The translations under genes and the position numbers were made by a program. Positions 5,009 through 59,075 of a stretch of 64,000 bases of DNA are shown here, in pieces. Source of the stretch: Roseococcus pinisoli (lineage in GTDB: Bacteria; Pseudomonadota; Alphaproteobacteria; Acetobacterales; Acetobacteraceae); assembly GCF_018413645.1 (NCBI RefSeq), contig NZ_JAHCDA010000001.1:682001-746000 (forward strand), given 5' to 3'. The notes beneath the pieces were generated by a model that was given only the letters and a program-made list of their open reading frames with translations, did not search any database and had not been told where the DNA came from. Positions within the stretch are counted from its first letter, which is position 1. Every line of letters begins with the position of its first letter.

Positions 5009-6217
5009 TTACGGCTGGGTGAGGCTGTCCATCGCCGCCTGGACACCGCCCTTGGCATGGGGAATGCCCGCCAGGCCCAGCGCCATCTCGACCGAGGCCA
5101 GCGTGCCCAGGATCATCGGCTCGTTGAGGTCGCCGAGATGCCCGATGCGGAAGACCTTGCCCGACAGGTTGGAAAGGCCCGCGCCGGTGGAGACGTTGAA
5201 CCGCTCCAGCGCGATCTTGCGCACGGCCTCGGCATCGGTGCCCTCGGGCATCAGGATCGCGGTCACGCTGTCGGAATAGCGCTCGGGATTCTGGCAGAAG
5301 AGCTGCGGGCCGTTATTGCCGGACCAATGCTGCACGCAGGCGCGCACGGCCTTCGCCAGTCGCGCATGGCGCTTGAAGACGTTCTCCAGCCCTTCCTCCT
5401 CGAGGATGAGCCGCAGGGCCTCCTGCAGGCCGTAGAAGAGCGTGACCGGCACGGTGCCGACGAAGCTCTTCTGCTTGCGCGCCAGCATCTCCGTCCAGTC
5501 GAAGTAGTGGCGCGGATGGGTGCTGGCCCGGTGCGCCGCCATCGCCTTCTCGGAGGCGCCGGTGAAGCTGAAGCCCGTGGGCAGCATGAGGCCCTTCTGG
5601 CTGCCGCCCACGCAGACATCGACGCCCCACTCGTCCATGCGGAAATCGAAGCAGCCGAGCGAGCTGATCGTGTCCGTCATCAGCAGCGCCGGGTGCTTCA
5701 GCTCATCGAGGATGGCGCGGACCTGGTCGATCGGCAGGCGAGTGCCGGCGGCCGTCTCGTTGTGCACGCAGCAGACGGCCTTGATCTCATGCGCCGTGTC
5801 GGCGGCCAGCGCCTCGCGGATCGCCGACATCTCGACGCCGCGGCGCCAATCGGCGGCGACCGGCTGCGTGCGGAAGCCGAGGGTGCTGCACATCTTGGTC
5901 CAGGAGGCGGAGAAATGGCCCGTCTCGGGGATCAGCACGAGGTCGCCCGGCGAGAGCGTGTTGACCAGCGACGCCTCCCAGGCGCCATGGCCGGAGGCGG
6001 TGTACATGAACAGGTGCTGCTCGGTCTTGATGACCTTCTTCAGCCCCGCGAAGCAGGCATCGTAGACGGCCATGAAGGCAGGATCGTTGAAGTCCATGCT
6101 GGCGCGCGCGGTCGCGAGCAGCACGGAATCGGGGATGTTCGTCGGGCCCGGATTGGCGAAGAAAAGCCGGCCGCGCGCCATGGGACGCGCGGTGATCGGG
6201 GCAGTGTGACCGTCCAT
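5009..6217 (-). CDS. Class V PLP-dependent aminotransferase (serine/alanine-glyoxylate type)
   Basis: This 402-residue cytoplasmic PLP enzyme carries family hallmarks: LFFANPGPTNIPDSV near the N-terminus, the substrate-entry region TASGHGAWEASLVN, the aspartate in LLMTDTISSLG and the Schiff-base lysine in CVGGSQKGLMLPTGF. Members transfer amino groups from serine or alanine to glyoxylate; the ureidoglycine-glyoxylate enzymes are close relatives. No serine-cycle genes (hpr, glyA, mtkAB) are nearby, so the exact donor is unresolved. ATG 6217 is preferred over the ATG at 6280, since the motif-bearing part begins there and AGGAAAG precedes it. The 80 bases upstream contain two strong inverted repeats. 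Confidence 0.88.
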   Translation of the reverse strand: MDGHTAPITARPMARGRLFFANPGPTNIPDSVLLATARASMDFNDPAFMAVYDACFAGLKKVIKTEQHLFMYTASGHGAWEASLVNTLSPGDLVLIPETGHFSASWTKMCSTLGFRTQPVAADWRRGVEMSAIREALAADTAHEIKAVCCVHNETAAGTRLPIDQVRAILDELKHPALLMTDTISSLGCFDFRMDEWGVDVCVGGSQKGLMLPTGFSFTGASEKAMAAHRASTHPRHYFDWTEMLARKQKSFVGTVPVTLFYGLQEALRLILEEEGLENVFKRHARLAKAVRACVQHWSGNNGPQLFCQNPERYSDSVTAILMPEGTDAEAVRKIALERFNVSTGAGLSNLSGKVFRIGHLGDLNEPMILGTLASVEMALGLAGIPHAKGGVQAAMDSLTQP

Positions 6218-6243
6218 TTTCTCGTGACTTTCCTGCGAATTCG

Positions 6244-6265
6244 TTCCGGCCAGTATTGGCCGGAA
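6244..6265. promoter_or_regulatory. Inverted repeat upstream of the aminotransferase (operator candidate)
   Basis: TTCCGGCCA and TGGCCGGAA form a perfect 9-bp dyad around GTAT. It lies 27 bases before the aminotransferase ATG and within 5 bases of a second, larger repeat at 6270-6304. It may be a repressor site or part of the upstream gene's terminator. Confidence 0.4.
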
Positions 6266-6269
6266 CCAC

Positions 6270-6304
6270 GCGCTGATCAACGCCGCCCCGGCGTTGATCA
6301 GCGC
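6270..6304 (-). terminator. Strong hairpin at the end of the Bug receptor gene
   Basis: GCGCTGATCAACGCC and its exact complement form a 15-bp stem with a 5-base loop. It begins inside the last codons of the Bug receptor gene (stop at 6298-6300). It should end transcription from upstream before the aminotransferase gene. No T-run follows. Confidence 0.6.
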
Positions 6305-7287
6305 TGCAGGCGGATGCCCGTGCGCGCCACCACGTCGCGGTACTTGGCCACCTCGGCCGCCATGAAGGCGCGCGTCGTCTCCGGCGTGTTCGGCTCGGTC
6401 CAGGCCGAGACGCCGGCGCCCAGCAGCCGGTCGCGCAGCGACGCGTCCGAGACCGCGGCCACCAGCGCGCGGTTGATCTGCGCGACCAGGGCGGGCGGCA
6501 TGTTCGGCGGGCCCACGATCATGTTCCAGGTCGTCATCTCGAAGCCGGGCATCGCGGCCTCGTTCAGCGTCGGCACATCGGGGAAGGAGGGGAAGCGCTC
6601 GCGGCTCGTCACCGCGAGGCCGCGCACCATCCCGTCCCGCACCTGGCCCGCCGCGCTCGCCAGCACGGCGATGCCGAACTGGCCCTCGCCCTGGTGGATC
6701 GCGGTCAGCATCAGACCGCCGCTGCGATAGGGGACGTGGGTGAAGCGCGCGCCACCCAGCGCCAGCGCCATCACCTCGACCGCGAGATGCGGGATGGAGC
6801 CGACGCCCGAGGTCGCATAGGCGAATTCCTCGGGACGCGAGGCGCGCAGCCGCGCGACCGCTTCGGAGGCAGTGCGGGCGGGGAAGTTCGGGTTGGAGAC
6901 GAGGATGAGCGGCGCGGTGCCGACCATGCCGATATGCGTGAAATCCGCCATCGGGTCATAGGGCGTGCCGCCCTCCAGCGCGGCCGGCGCGATGGCATGG
7001 GAAGAGACTTCGACCAACATGATCGTGTGCCCGTCCGGTGCCTGGCGGCGCAGCCAGTCCGAGGCCACGACGCCGGAGGCGCCGGCCCGGTTCTCCACCA
7101 CCATGCGTGCGCCGGGCGAGATCTGGGCCGCGAAGCGCTCCGAGATCAGGCGCGAGGCGATATCCGTGCTGCCACCCGGGGCAAAGCCGGTCGCGAGCGT
7201 GATGGCACGCTCCGGATAGGTCTGCGCGCCGAGCGGCGAGGCGAGCACGGCAAGACAGGACGCGGCGAGCGCGAATCTTCGGAACAA
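6298..7287 (-). CDS. Bug-family tripartite tricarboxylate transporter receptor
   Basis: This is a 329-residue periplasmic binding protein. A signal peptide (MFRRFALAASCLAVLASPLGAQ, cut near residue 22) is followed by the family signature YPERAITLATGFAPGGSTDI and later APDGHTIMLVEVSSHA, FTHVPYRSGG and FPDVPTLNEAAMPGFE. Bug proteins bind carboxylates or small amides. They feed TctAB-type symporters, but no tctA or tctB is present in this window, so this is an orphan receptor. It lies between the aminotransferase and a second Bug gene (140-base gap), which suggests a shared theme of organic acid or amino acid use without proving co-transcription. Confidence 0.92.
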   Translation of the reverse strand: MFRRFALAASCLAVLASPLGAQTYPERAITLATGFAPGGSTDIASRLISERFAAQISPGARMVVENRAGASGVVASDWLRRQAPDGHTIMLVEVSSHAIAPAALEGGTPYDPMADFTHIGMVGTAPLILVSNPNFPARTASEAVARLRASRPEEFAYATSGVGSIPHLAVEVMALALGGARFTHVPYRSGGLMLTAIHQGEGQFGIAVLASAAGQVRDGMVRGLAVTSRERFPSFPDVPTLNEAAMPGFEMTTWNMIVGPPNMPPALVAQINRALVAAVSDASLRDRLLGAGVSAWTEPNTPETTRAFMAAEVAKYRDVVARTGIRLQR

Positions 7288-7427
7288 CGGATGATCCCCC
7301 TGGTTTTTGTTGGGTCGATCAAGCCCGAGGCCTCGCGCGGACGCAAGCCGTCACGATGCGCAGGGCAAGGCAAGGCGAATGGTGTCCGCCCTGCCCGTTC
7401 CCGCCGCCGCCCGACGCGGGAGGCGCG

Positions 7428-8384
7428 TCAGGGACGCTCGAGCCGGAGCCCCGCGCCTTCGGCAATGCCGCGAAACTTCGCGACCTCGGCCGCGATGAAG
7501 CGCGACGTCGCTTCCGGCCCCGTCGGCGGGGGCACGGCGACGCCGAGGCCGGCCAGCCGCTCGGCCAACGCGGGTTCGGCCAGGCAGTCCTGCACGGCGG
7601 CGGCCAGCGTCGCGATCCGCGCGGGCGGCGTGCCGCGCGGCGCCAGCAGCGCGTTCCAGGTCGAGACGTCGAAGGGCGCGAGACCGCCTTCCTCCAGCGT
7701 CGGCAGCTCGGGCCAGGTCGGGGTGCGGGCGGGCGTCGCCACGGCCAGCAGCCGCACGCGGCCGTCGCGCGCGATGCCGGACAGGCTCGCCAGCGTCTCG
7801 AACACGAAGGAAACCTCGCCGCGCGCCAGCGCCTCCAGGGCGGGGCCGCCGCCGCGATAGGGGATGTGCTCGGCACGCAGCTGCGTGCGCGCCAGGAAGA
7901 GCTCGGCGGCCAGATGCGTGATGCTGCCCGCCCCGGCGGAGCCATAGGTGCCCGGCGCTTCCGCCAGGGCACCGCGCAGCGCGGCGAGGTCGCGAGGGCC
8001 GTTCGGTGCCACCGCGAGGGCCAGCGGCGTCACACCCGTCAGCGCCACCGCGTCGAAGTCCCGGACCGCGTCATAGGGGAGATCCTGGAAGACGGCGGGA
8101 TTGGCGCCATGCGAGCTGGCCGAGGCGAAGAGCAGGGTATGGCCGTCCGGCATGGCGCGCTTGGCGGCCTCGCTGCCGACGGCGCCGCCGGCGCCCGCCC
8201 GGTTCTCGACCACCACGCGGGCCGAGAGCCGGGCCGAGAGACGATCAGCCAGGAGGCGCGCGGCGATATCCGTGCTGCCCGCCGGCCCGAAAGGCACGAT
8301 GAGGGTGATGCCGCGCTCGGGAAAGGCCAGCGCGGCGGTGGGGAGGAAAAGGCCCGCAAGGACGAGGAGGGAGCGTCGCTTCAT
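7428..8384 (-). CDS. Bug-family tripartite tricarboxylate transporter receptor
   Basis: This second orphan Bug receptor has 318 residues. The signal peptide is at residues 1-20 (MKRRSLLVLAGLFLPTAALA), followed by FPERGITLIVPFGPAGSTDI, AMPDGHTLLFASASSHGANP and AEHIPYRGGGPALEAL. Its sequence clearly differs from the neighbouring Bug protein, so they probably bind different ligands rather than being a recent duplicate. The start is uncertain: an in-frame ATG at 8396 would add four residues (MSRG), and neither ATG has a clear ribosome binding site. It lies 69 bases after the unknown gene of the ABC-importer operon and may be its last member. Confidence 0.88.
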   Translation of the reverse strand: MKRRSLLVLAGLFLPTAALAFPERGITLIVPFGPAGSTDIAARLLADRLSARLSARVVVENRAGAGGAVGSEAAKRAMPDGHTLLFASASSHGANPAVFQDLPYDAVRDFDAVALTGVTPLALAVAPNGPRDLAALRGALAEAPGTYGSAGAGSITHLAAELFLARTQLRAEHIPYRGGGPALEALARGEVSFVFETLASLSGIARDGRVRLLAVATPARTPTWPELPTLEEGGLAPFDVSTWNALLAPRGTPPARIATLAAAVQDCLAEPALAERLAGLGVAVPPPTGPEATSRFIAAEVAKFRGIAEGAGLRLERP

Positions 8385-53436: not shown

Positions 53437-53632
53437 GGGGCGGGGTCCATTTGTTGCGCGGACAATGGCGGATGCCATGCTGGCCCACAACCCGCGCCGC
53501 CGATGGCGGTTACAGAGGGCGCTCCCCTGGCGTGTTGACGCAACACGTTGACCGGGGGGCATGCCGCGCCTACCTGTCTCCCGCCCCCTATCCGTGCGCT
53601 CGGCGCGCGGCGCCCGGAGAGTCCTGCCACCC

Positions 53633-56365
<2,733 letters not shown>

Positions 56366-56379
56366 GCCTGAATCCCGAA

Positions 56380-56414
56380 GGTTTGACCGGCAGGCATCGC
56401 CTTCCGGTCAAGCC
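56380..56414 (+). terminator. secA terminator hairpin
   Basis: GGTTTGACCGG and CCGGTCAAGCC form an 11-bp stem with one G-T pair and a 13-base loop, starting 14 bases after the secA stop. The next genes downstream are weak, so termination here is plausible. Confidence 0.6.
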
Positions 56415-56744
56415 GTAAGGGATGGAGTGGCCGCGACGGATCTGCCAATCCTTGCCAGCCCCGTGCACAAGGCACGGCCGCTCGGCGGAACATTCCGCAG
56501 TAAAAACTTCATCCCCGGAAAATCGGAAGAGTATCGCAAGGAGCTTTTACGCTTCTGGCGATAATACTGCTGCCCAAAGGCAGCTTCGGCGACTGGACCG
56601 CGGTCCTGATTTTATCCCATCTTCCTGGAATTTACCGAGCATTCCGTGCGAGCGGAAAATCATTCTTGACCATTGATCTGGCTCGTGATTTCATCCGCCC
56701 TGGTCAGGGCACTCGGTTGCCCGCGGCCACATGAGGAACAAGCG

Positions 56745-56879
56745 ATGGACTGCCACCCTAGTCGTGGCACCGCGCTCCCCGCCGTCTGCAGGTCGGGGGT
56801 CGTGGTGCCCCGGCATAACAATGCAGGCTCCCCGGCGCAGCGGCGCCGAGTGTCCCGGATGGCGCAACTCCACGCCTGA
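56745..56879 (+). CDS. Possible small protein 1 (44 residues)
   Basis: An ATG at 56745 follows GAGGAACAAGCG, a near-ideal ribosome binding site, and opens a 44-codon frame beginning MDCHPSRGTALPAVCRSG, with two cysteines and a basic tail ending RRRVSRMAQLHA. No family recognised. It is the first of three similar short frames. Coding status is doubtful without conservation evidence; part of it can fold (GGCACC pairing with GGTGCC). Confidence 0.3.
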   Translation: MDCHPSRGTALPAVCRSGVVVPRHNNAGSPAQRRRVSRMAQLHA

Positions 56880-56927
56880 CCCGTGACGTCTCCGCCGCAG
56901 CCCAAGGGGCGGCTGCGGAGATGCACG

Positions 56928-57131
56928 ATGAACAACTTTCCTTCCGACACAGCACGCGGCAACCGCGAAGTCTGCCCGCGCCTCGACGCCTCCTGCTCCC
57001 AGGATCAGCTGACGGGCCGGCCGGTCATGACGTGGCCCGCCGAAGCGGAGGCGCCGCCGCCGGCGGCTTCCTGGGCGGGTGTCGTCATGACCCGCCTGTA
57101 TCGAGCCGTCGCCGCACGCGGCACCCCCTGA
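56928..57131 (+). CDS. Possible small protein 2 (67 residues)
   Basis: ATG 56928 follows GCGGAG at 7-8 bases and opens a 67-codon frame starting MNNFPSDTARGNREVCPRLD. It has two cysteines, an Ala/Pro stretch and ends TRLYRAVAARGTP. No domain seen. The frame contains the 70-base compound hairpin at 57023-57092, which argues that the structure, not the peptide, may be what is selected. Confidence 0.3.
   Translation: MNNFPSDTARGNREVCPRLDASCSQDQLTGRPVMTWPAEAEAPPPAASWAGVVMTRLYRAVAARGTP
57023..57092. repeat. 70-base compound hairpin
   Basis: Outer arms GGTCATGACG (57023-57032) and CGTCATGACC (57083-57092) are perfect. Inside, CCCGCC-GAAGC pairs with GCTTC-...-GGCGGG, leaving a GC-rich apex at 57047-57065. 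This is far more structure than neighbouring coding DNA shows. Confidence 0.6.
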
Positions 57132-57144
57132 GCGAGGAAACACC

Positions 57145-57285
57145 ATGGACGACCCCTCCAGTCGCCCCACCGGTGCGTTCCTTTCGCGCACCGGTGGGGT
57201 TTGGCTCATCCCCTTCACTGATCATCAGGTGACACCCCCCGGAAGGCGGGCGGAACCCGCGCGAACAGCGTCAGGCAGGCCCTGA
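57145..57285 (+). CDS. Possible small protein 3 (46 residues)
   Basis: ATG 57145 follows GCGAGGAAACACC and starts MDDPSSRPTGAFLSRTGG. The frame ends at TGA 57283-57285. A perfect 13-bp terminator-like hairpin sits at codons 7-19, which makes real translation doubtful. Only 13 bases separate it from the previous short frame. Confidence 0.22.
   Translation: MDDPSSRPTGAFLSRTGGVWLIPFTDHQVTPPGRRAEPARTASGRP
57165..57199 (+). terminator. Strong intrinsic-terminator-like hairpin
   Basis: CCCCACCGGTGCG and its exact complement form a 13-bp stem with a 9-base pyrimidine-rich loop, followed by TTTGG. It would end any transcript coming from the small-ORF region. Confidence 0.65.
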
Positions 57286-57339
57286 CGGCTGCGCCGTCGG
57301 ATTCCGCCCCCCGCCGATGGAAGGGGCGCTCGCCGACGG
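57269..57339. repeat. Two tandem hairpins downstream of the terminator
   Basis: CGTCAGG/CCTGACG (57269-57287, 5-base loop) is followed by a two-step hairpin. CCGTCGG (57294-57300) pairs with CCGACGG (57333-57339), and inside it CGCCCC (57305-57310) pairs with GGGGCG (57323-57328), with a symmetric 4x4 internal loop. Purpose unknown. Confidence 0.5.
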
Positions 57340-57644
57340 AACGCAGAACATGATCTCCCCTGTCATCGGGCGGCCCCGGCAGGACGCCGCGGCACGCCGT
57401 GTCGAAGCCTTCCCCTTCCGCATGAACCTCACGCGGACAGCGCCGCTCCTTGGCGGCACGGCCATGGCTCCAGCGCTGAGCTCTTGCCTCCCCGGCCACG
57501 AAGCGTGGCAGCGGGACAGGGCCGGCGGGCGCCCTCCGCCGCGCCGGCAGACCGGCCGAACGGCCACCCGTCCCCACACCTCAATCTCCCCTTTCGCAGG
57601 CCCGGGCGCGCAAGATGCCCGTGGCCGATCACTGAGACTCGACC

Positions 57645-59075
57645 ATGACCTCAACGAATTTCCGCCCCGCCGCCCGTTCCGCGGCGGCTATCGCCCTGGC
57701 GATCGCGCTGGTTGCCCCGCTCTGTGCCATGGCACAGACGCCGCCGCTTTCTGCACGGATCGCGGGTGAAGAGGCACAGCTCTCCGCCCCTCCTGCTCCG
57801 GCGGAGGCGGCGCTGTTCCCGAGCCTTGCCGCATGGCAGGACCAGATGGAGAGCGAGGGCTGGCTGGTGCGCGGCCAGGCCACCTTCGTCATCCAGGGCC
57901 ACCCTTCCTTCCGTTCGCCCTATCGCGCGGCCGGCTCGCTGCGTCCTGCGGCGCAGGCCGCCAATACCTTCTCGTCGGATCTCGTGCTCGGCCGCCGGTT
58001 GTGGGCGGGCGCGGAGGTGCTGGTGAACGCCTCGGTCACGCGGGGCTTCGGCCTCTCCAACGCCACCGGCATCGCGGCCTTCCCGAACAACGAGGCCTTC
58101 CGCCTGGGCTCGACGGAGCCCTACATCTATACGCCGCGCATCCTGTTCCGGCAGACCATCGGGCTCTCGGCCGATACCGTGCCGAATGACGACCCGCTGC
58201 GCTTCAACGCGCCGCTGCCGCGCGAGCGCATCACCATCACCGCGGGCAAGATGAGCGTCTGGGACATCTTCGACGACAACCGCTACGCCCATGATCCGCG
58301 CACGCAATTCCTCAACTGGGCCCTGGTGGGCGGGGGCGCCTTCGACTACGCGGCCGATGCGCGGGGATGGACGCCGGGCGTGGCCATCGAATGGGAGAAT
58401 GGGAGCTGGGGCCTGCGCGCCGGCGCCTTCCAGGTCGCGCGCCGGGTCAACGGCCTCTTTCTCGATCCCGCCGTCACACGCGCCTGGCAGGCCCTCGCGC
58501 AGGTGGATCGCTTCTACACCGTGAACGGGCGGTCGGGCGCGCTCCGCCTCACCTACGGCGCCTCCCGCTCCCGGCAGTCCAGCTGGGGCGAGATCTTCCG
58601 CAACGGCTTCGATACCTTCGAGCAGAATCCCACCGGCTACCGCCTGAAGCACAACGTCAACCTGAGCTGGGACCAGGAGCTGACCGACGACCTCGGCGTC
58701 TTCGCGCGCCTCTCCTGGAATGACGGGCGCACGCAGAACTGGATGTTCACCGAGATGGACCGCGCGGTCTCCGGCGGCCTGTCCCTGCGCGGCCTGCGCT
58801 GGAACCGGCCGAACGACACGGTAGGACTTGGCGCCAATATCGGCTGGATCTCGGCCGGGCGGCGCCAGTACCTGGAGCAGGGCGGCATCGGCTTCATCAC
58901 CGGGGACGGCGCGCTGCGCTATCGGCCGGAAGTGGCCTCGGAGGTGTATTACGACGCCCGCGTGGCTCCGGGGGTCAATCTCGCGGTCAACTACCAGCTC
59001 GCGGTGAATCCGGCCTTCAATGCCGATCGCGGGCCGGTGCATCTCTTCGCCTTCCGCGCGCGCCTGGCCTTCTGA
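57645..59075 (+). CDS. Outer-membrane porin, carbohydrate porin (OprB)-like
   Basis: The 476-residue beta-barrel protein has a signal peptide (residues 1-31, AIALVAPLCAMAQ) and alternating strands throughout. Segments such as QATFVIQGHPSFRSPYRAAG, ITITAGKMSVWDIFDDNRYA, VEW-type strands near residue 245 and FARLSWNDGRTQNWMFTEMD match the carbohydrate-selective porin family. The C-terminal residue is Phe (FAFRARLAF), the usual barrel-assembly signal. It may take up sugars or other small solutes. Single gene, ending in a strong terminator shared with gdhA. Confidence 0.8.
   Translation: MTSTNFRPAARSAAAIALAIALVAPLCAMAQTPPLSARIAGEEAQLSAPPAPAEAALFPSLAAWQDQMESEGWLVRGQATFVIQGHPSFRSPYRAAGSLRPAAQAANTFSSDLVLGRRLWAGAEVLVNASVTRGFGLSNATGIAAFPNNEAFRLGSTEPYIYTPRILFRQTIGLSADTVPNDDPLRFNAPLPRERITITAGKMSVWDIFDDNRYAHDPRTQFLNWALVGGGAFDYAADARGWTPGVAIEWENGSWGLRAGAFQVARRVNGLFLDPAVTRAWQALAQVDRFYTVNGRSGALRLTYGASRSRQSSWGEIFRNGFDTFEQNPTGYRLKHNVNLSWDQELTDDLGVFARLSWNDGRTQNWMFTEMDRAVSGGLSLRGLRWNRPNDTVGLGANIGWISAGRRQYLEQGGIGFITGDGALRYRPEVASEVYYDARVAPGVNLAVNYQLAVNPAFNADRGPVHLFAFRARLAF

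Follow-up and report, generated by a model that had tools for sequence, protein, structure and literature searches.

What kind of genetic element lies between secA and the gene of an OprB-family porin in Roseococcus pinisoli? In the stretch of 64,000 nucleotides analysed here (the window), the region is flanked on its 5' side by secA (53561-56365), whose product carries the SecA domains and the SEC-C motif, and on its 3' side by the porin gene (57645-59075). An earlier note had described it as rich in short frames and hairpins, which might represent a structured non-coding RNA, a leader-peptide system, or a small-protein operon. Among these, we favour the leader-peptide system, with covarying RNA structure as part of it: the region is probably a cis-acting mRNA leader that couples the translation of leader peptides to a magnesium-uptake regulon, with the porin as a putative target. 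It is read as a magnesium-uptake switch because similar leaders precede known magnesium-transport genes in related bacteria. Its features are as follows:

56733-56738, + strand: Shine-Dalgarno sequence of uORF1, GAGGAA, as read from the sequence.
56745-56879, + strand: uORF1, leader peptide MDCHPSRG..., 44 aa, first 8 codons largely kept over 10 loci.
56753-56767, + strand: CCAC-N7-GTGG over uORF1 codons 3-8, a possible mini-hairpin, arms kept in 10 of 10 uORF1 (alignments).
56766-56809, + strand: helix P1 (56766-56774 with 56801-56809), beginning at uORF1 codon 8, from covariation; z of the stretch -5.0.
56831-56850, + strand: helix P2 (56831-56836 with 56845-56850), from covariation.
56887-56923, + strand: hairpin holding the uORF2 Shine-Dalgarno sequence, arms 56887-56898 and 56912-56923, from folding; helix test p 0.005.
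56928-57131, + strand: uORF2, small protein of 67 aa with W-A-GVV-MT-RL-Y-R near its C-terminus, a motif unchanged across all 8 aligned rows.
57134-57139, + strand: Shine-Dalgarno sequence of uORF3, GAGGAA, 2 nt past the uORF2 stop.
57145-57285, + strand: uORF3, leader peptide MDDPSSRP..., 46 aa, its motif found directly before mgtE in other genomes.
57165-57202, + strand: 13-bp hairpin inside uORF3 from codon 7 (57165-57177 with 57187-57199), then TTT, from folding; z -5.7.
57289-57346, + strand: hairpin holding the next ribosome-binding site, arms 57289-57300 and 57333-57346, followed by ATG 57350, from folding; z -3.0.
57645-59075, + strand: OprB-family porin, the presumed target gene, PF04966 E 9.5e-35.

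The anatomy given in the earlier note holds at the level of the sequence. The three short frames are all present, at 56745, 56928, and 57145, each behind a purine-rich ribosome-binding site, which is GGAGAT for the second start (ATG 56928) and GAGGAA for both the first (ATG 56745) and the third (ATG 57145), the two that had been noted as alike. The further similarity pointed out between these starts, CCAGTCG/CCTAGTCG, corresponds to AGT CGN at codons 6-7 of both MDCHPSRG... and MDDPSSRP.... The 13-bp hairpin followed by TTT (57165-57177/57187-57199) and the two further hairpins (56887-56898/56912-56923 and 57289-57300/57333-57346) were recovered as well, the last one ending at 57346, 7 bases beyond the end of the stretch first described. 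The compound hairpin sits at 56761-56814, inside uORF1, and reaches its reported 70 bases only if counted from the ATG. From the hairpin-covered ATG (57350), it is a further 295 bp to the porin start. A 139-aa open frame, 57350-57769, begins at this ATG and crosses the porin start out of frame; it gave no Pfam match.

Could such an arrangement arise from G+C-rich intergenic DNA alone, with frames and hairpins occurring by chance? Base composition does make long frames and hairpins common here, and many open frames of at least 30 aa overlap the stretch on both strands. As a full account, chance is nevertheless refuted: the element recurs in 12 genomes, its helices covary, uORF2 shows selection at the codon level, and the gene association is consistent. 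We give chance next to no probability. The note had named a lack of conservation in relatives as evidence against its proposal, and the opposite was found: 13 leader loci are spread over 12 genomes, all within a single family (Acetobacteraceae/Roseomonadaceae group; the two named species checked are placed in Roseomonadaceae), and most stand before magnesium-transport genes or a porin of the kind seen in the window. The genomes are the window genome (G000, two loci), G001, G013, G020, G041, G044, G064, G106, G131, G140, G190, and G230. The loosest locus is that of G020, with only a uORF3-like frame, MPEEGDSRP, where AGT CGG comes one codon later.

Several searches contributed to this count. 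A DNA search of the window genome itself detected a second copy of the uORF1 part of the leader before mgtC (L002, the mgtC confirmed by PF02308), and the whole-locus DNA search in the genus gave short matches in 6 of 21 genomes, the informative ones being L002 and L007, a congener locus with the same three-frame layout before mgtE; L003, L005, and L006, read in part, look like pieces of unrelated genes. A pattern search of the family matched 6 of 200 genomes, one of them by chance, and a second one matched 10 of 397 genomes, 6 of them with counted loci, the reversed control pattern giving 8 matches in the search of 397 genomes. Two-mismatch pattern matches in G074, G069, G105, and G326, and a second one in G001, were left uncounted, and the pattern match L010, with its early stop, was dismissed as chance. 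Searching the contigs of named genomes with the pattern yielded four loci, in Belnapia rosea, Crenalkalicoccus roseus, and two Roseicella; over 600 bases counted from the uORF1 start, the sequences of these records are identical to those of G190, G041, G131, and G044, respectively, and each was counted once. The uORF3 motif was found in 4 of 299 genomes, namely the window genome and three with mgtE directly after it, and the MgtE loci of the genus also fed the count. The uORF1 covariance model R1 matched 8 of 249 genomes (one weakly) and, order-wide, 8 of 274 (two weakly), all of the latter in the window's family, the 274 being listed without the share that other families have in them. An R1 match in G145 (E 0.015), which appears to fall in coding sequence, and another in G568 (E 0.030) were not included. 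Beyond the family, uORF3 was not seen when 30 class-level MgtE loci were scanned with M..[DE]..SR[PG], neither of the matches in L063 and L076 being convincing, and viral contigs had no match to the leader pattern.

The genes behind the leader point to Mg2+. Over the 13 loci, the next gene is mgtE in six (G001, G013, G020, G041, G064, and G106), mgtC in one (the window genome's own second leader copy, L002), an OprB-family porin in four (the window, G190, G230, and G140), and none of these in two. In the congeners G013 and G001, the leader is followed by mgtE, then an OprB porin, then mgtC (by Pfam for G013), and these operon porins share 79% and 73% identity with the window porin, respectively, over the aligned part. 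G041 has mgtE after the leader and then a more distant OprB porin (E 1.5e-78), and in G106 (L159, 5100-9716, minus strand) uORF3 lies in the short gap between two tandem mgtE genes, and mgtC comes later on the same side; between the second mgtE and mgtC, a Pfam scan of a single frame left part of the stretch without a match. In the window genome, nothing matched MgtE_N above the cut-off of the family, so here the porin and mgtC each carry their own leader copy. MgtE_N exceeded the cut-off in seven congeners, and four of them (G002, G003, G005, and G007) have no such leader in the scanned loci; thus, mgtE does not require the leader.

Some loci depart from this picture. Downstream of the leader in the two Roseicella (G044 and G131; L020 and L163), no MgtE, MgtC, or porin match was obtained, and the next gene in L020, which is convergent, encodes an alcohol dehydrogenase of the zinc type; L019/L020 retain uORF1 and uORF2 despite no mgtE, mgtC, or such porin following them. 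In G064 (L158, ~6129-7673, minus strand), mgtE is divided between two frames, one with MgtE_N and the other with the CBS and MgtE core domains, which we attribute to decay or sequencing error. The porin frame of G140 (L127) breaks off early, after the signal-peptide region, into unrelated sequence, possibly through an insertion element, and the uORF1 of this locus has also lost Asp2. The upstream stretches read at two other MgtC loci of the genus, L130 and L132, contain no leader, the MgtC loci covered being these two, those of G013 and G001, and the window genome's own copy; in L132 (G014), mgtC lies close downstream of the end of a secA-like gene, and secA also precedes the leader in the window.

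The window porin (P0001) belongs to the OprB family (PF04966, 121.1 bits vs. a cut-off of 22.9), and its link to Mg2+ rests on gene order and on the shared leader. In the porin tree, which leaves many forks unresolved and places the G041 porin on a very long branch, the porins linked to a leader are not gathered in a single clade; four changes account for the six leader-linked rows, and 479 of 500 shuffles required more. The window genome encodes a second OprB porin (L160, G000:C5, ~969248-970600), ~70% identical to the window porin, at which neither the start-motif scan nor model R1 detected a leader.

Turning to the peptides themselves, uORF1 and uORF3 appear to be variants of a single module. 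The ten uORF1 start with MDCHPSR (five), MDCHQRR (two), MDCHPRR, MDPHPRR, or MAPHPRR (one each), in the variants MDCHPSRG, MDCHPRRG, MDPHPRRG, MAPHPRRG, and MDCHQRRG. Six of the seven uORF3 start with MDD or MDE, two residues, and S-[R/P], and the seventh with MPEEGDSR (variants MDDPSSRP, MDDGSSRP, MDEGSSRG, MDEGSSPA, and MPEEGDSRP). Acidic residues near the start number one in uORF1 and two or three in uORF3. The codon AGT stands at position 6 in 6/7 uORF3 (two AGT in a row in five) and in only 3/10 uORF1; it makes up 0.9% of the 693 serine codons of 33 window frames, a figure lowered by the choice of these frames for third-position G+C. Past their first codons, the peptide sequences are not conserved, which is what leader peptides or constraint on the RNA would predict: dN/dS over the whole uORF1 frame was 0.97, 0.93, 0.86, 1.07, and 0.5 in five pairs, and that of uORF3 was 1.14 in one pair. 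No NCBIfam match was obtained for uORF1, uORF3, or four uORF2.

The covariation analysis over related genomes that the earlier note had proposed as a check supports the RNA structure within uORF1, where helices P1 and P2 covary. Over 8 rows and 14 pairs, 94.6% of cells are paired, and 5 of the 14 pairs show changes on both sides. The score of 0.339 compares with 0.181 +/- 0.031 in shuffled alignments (0/500 as high), and no slid register comes close; four of five measures gave 0/500 shuffles as high, and the fifth, the number of pair types, was unremarkable (102/500). This covariation is also what a metal or metabolite riboswitch would display, in which a ligand, Mg2+ for example, is bound directly by the uORF1 RNA (mini-hairpin, P1, and P2) and what look like conserved codons are in fact aptamer nucleotides. 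The codons CAC, CGT, and GGC of uORF1, identical in 10/10 loci even though CGT accounts for only 5.1% of arginine codons, would fit such an aptamer, as would the dN/dS near 1 of the whole uORF1 frame in four of the five pairs. However, uORF3 shares the start and the spacing of uORF1 but not its RNA sequence, and occurs without uORF1 before mgtE in G020, G064, and G106; moreover, start and stop codons are kept in all 8 uORF1 and 7 uORF3 analysed. No Rfam family reached its cut-off in the window or in the leaders of 10 loci, apart from one tRNA, and this includes the M-box riboswitch (RF00380), without a gathering-level match in either set. We therefore consider a riboswitch unlikely. Sub-threshold Rfam matches within 56366-57700 (up to E 5), to two microRNA families and one sRNA (E 1.7-3.8), were taken as chance.

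The layout common to the modules, with a leader peptide, an early hairpin, a stop codon, and a hairpin over the next site, points instead to control by leader-peptide translation. Behind each leader peptide come 37-64 nt (94 nt for one of the Roseicella) before the next frame, and in this gap the 3' arm of a hairpin holds all or part of the next Shine-Dalgarno sequence. This was analysed in 15 modules, leaving out the second Roseicella and G140, by shuffling the part upstream of the Shine-Dalgarno sequence 200 times. The helix over the next Shine-Dalgarno sequence had p < 0.05 in 8/15 gaps and 0.11 to 0.47 in the other 7/15 (0.11 for the window hairpin at 57289-57346 taken alone), with a Fisher combined p of ~1e-8 over the 15 gaps, which is optimistic given that G001 and G013, and the Belnapia pair, are related. 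As a set, the next ribosome-binding site thus lies within a hairpin just past the leader peptide. The position equivalent to the window's 57350 start is the mgtE start in six other loci. Against 200 dinucleotide shuffles each, the early hairpins of the window had z -5.0 (uORF1) and -5.7 (uORF3), and its inter-ORF hairpins -5.3 and -3.0. Some hairpins elsewhere are no stronger than shuffles, with inter-ORF z near 0 in the genus Belnapia, and early-hairpin z of -0.1 in G064 and -0.3 in the uORF1 of G001. We rejected the 13-bp hairpin as an intrinsic terminator, which has only three T and is absent from the + strand terminator-like sites of a simple scan; no T run follows the equivalent hairpins among those read in relatives. 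A pairing of the AGTCG motif with CGACT was also rejected, since CGACT is absent from all 10 leaders tested.

The middle frame, uORF2, looks like a real small protein. It is under purifying selection in one genus, Belnapia, with dN/dS of 0.21, 0.26, and 0.19 in three pairs of this genus; in the Belnapia-G230 comparison, the value of 0.21 in frame contrasts with 1.2 and 2.8 in the other frames. The evidence is weak for G001/G013 (0.64 in frame vs. 1.7 and 0.9), and the two Roseicella gave 0.52. W-x-G-V-V-x-x-R-L-x-R is common to the eight aligned uORF2, no Pfam match was found for three that were scanned, and the own mgtC locus and G041 have a different small protein in its place, with VA[ST]W-x-LD-xx-T. 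The distance from uORF2 to uORF3 is 11-13 nt in three loci (13 nt in the window), with a 17-nt overlap in G041; lying within a few bases of each other, both frames are probably translationally coupled.

This raises the question of whether the regulated product might be uORF2 itself, as an accessory protein of Mg2+ uptake, with uORF1 and uORF3 being minor. The selection on uORF2 would agree with this, as would the two Roseicella loci, in which uORF2 is the final product remaining and the surroundings showed no mgtE, mgtC, or porin of this kind. Against it, uORF3 precedes mgtE without uORF1 in three genomes, with neither uORF2 type in the loci read there, the two uORF2 sequence types are unlike each other, and the profile of the GVV type was confident only at leader loci, in 6/249 genomes, all six being sources of profile rows. 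We regard a small-protein operon as improbable, more so than a riboswitch. Weak matches to the uORF2 profile (E 1e-4 to 0.05; eight read) were taken as chance, several of them with a W-x-GVV-like string; in the loci scanned around them, no uORF1- or uORF3-like start was detected, except for a string MDCSPSRG in L178.

Under the preferred reading as a leader-peptide system, the leader would consist of two copies of one module, each with a leader peptide M-D-x-x-x-[S/R]-[R/P], a hairpin from around codon 7-8, a stop codon, and a second hairpin. The latter would hold the ribosome-binding site of the next frame, which would be uORF2 for module A, and mgtE or the 57350 start for module B. The uORF1 and uORF3 peptides would be translated, and the passage of the ribosome over the start of the leader peptide, with its acidic residue, rare codons, and hairpin, would decide the opening of the next site. 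The signal may be intracellular Mg2+, to which the target genes point, and the OprB-family porin of the window probably helps Mg2+ to cross the outer membrane.

Folding with a ribosome footprint placed at four codons and at the stop was carried out in the 15 modules. Opening the next site became cheaper by more than 2 kcal/mol with the footprint at one of the four codons in 6/15 modules, as in Belnapia module A, where a footprint at codon 6 lowers the cost from 9.2 to 6.9. With the footprint at the stop, the cost fell by more than 1 in 5/15 modules (12.2 to 6.6 in G013 module B). In the remaining modules, the cost was little changed or higher, and Shine-Dalgarno accessibility was equally mixed; folding thus did not consistently free the next site or single out the event that opens it. 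A more specific proposal, a two-stage ribosome relay, is that two related leader peptides in series open the next sites in a Mg2+-dependent manner, forming a graded switch for an entire route of Mg2+ import, made up of the outer-membrane porin, inner-membrane MgtE, and MgtC, where the porin would be an outer-membrane entry channel for Mg2+ in Proteobacteria and the counterpart of mycobacterial PE20-PPE31. We put this forward tentatively, as an idea that could well be wrong.

In translational attenuators of the erm type, a hairpin hiding the next ribosome-binding site comes after the leader peptide, and the present leader shares both elements. To our knowledge, no drug-dependent stall site exists in it, unlike in the erm-type systems, and folding did not show the alternative pairing on stalling here.

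Literature searches retrieved no published description of this leader, and, as far as the available text of the sources goes, it looks undescribed, its nearest relative by design being the Mbox-uORF-PE20/PPE31-mgtC operon of Mycobacterium. The pe20 operon of M. tuberculosis (Mbox-uORF1-uORF2/Rv1805A-PE20-PPE31-...-mgtC) is described as raised in low Mg2+, and similarly has two uORFs in its leader, of which the second encodes a conserved peptide, before mgtC and PE20-PPE31, a proposed channel for Mg2+ uptake, and a ribosome-binding site hidden by pairing (PMC12810186). Unlike the present leader, it has an M-box aptamer, and its peptide and transport proteins differ; the accessible part of that account describes no repeated leader-peptide module and lists no mgtE (PMC12810186).

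Among enterobacterial systems, the mgtL leader of mgtA is likewise a short leader peptide with early acidic residues before a Mg2+ transporter gene, whose translation sets mgtA expression; in Escherichia coli and Salmonella, poor translation of its acidic or proline codons at low Mg2+ raises mgtA (PMC11282234, PMC11552253). The trait shared here is a uORF3 start of MDD, MDE, or MPEE before mgtE in six loci, the next known gene in the window being the porin. However, mgtL has EPDP (PMC11552253, PMC11282234), whereas the present leaders have MDD/MDE, MPEE, or MDCH, and no EPDP-like acidic-proline motif occurs in the uORF1 and uORF3 starts listed. EE or DE alone conferred no EttA dependence in YFP, in the part of that study available (PMC11282234); with this result, and with few acidic residues, drop-off of the mgtL type is not secured here. 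Also unlike mgtL, as far as its accessible descriptions go, the present leader repeats its module and a hairpin covers the next Shine-Dalgarno sequence (PMC11552253, PMC11282234). The mgtCBR leader resembles ours in having two short ORFs, mgtM and mgtP, in one leader before mgtC; mgtM answers to ATP, and mgtP, rich in proline codons, to proline-charged tRNA (PMC3641672). No such run of codons is seen at the start of uORF1 or uORF3. Finally, the mgtE motif of Thioalkalivibrio is also a structured leader before mgtE, with the Shine-Dalgarno sequence at the bottom of a stem, and is set apart by its description, in the accessible text, as a riboswitch candidate rather than a uORF, reported only from that genus (PMC11109978).

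If the proposed reading is true, this leader would represent a leader-peptide Mg2+ switch beyond enterobacteria and mycobacteria, made of a repeated module. A porin from a family named as carbohydrate-selective shares an operon with mgtE and mgtC in G013 and G001, which points to a porin as part of a dedicated route of Mg2+ uptake.
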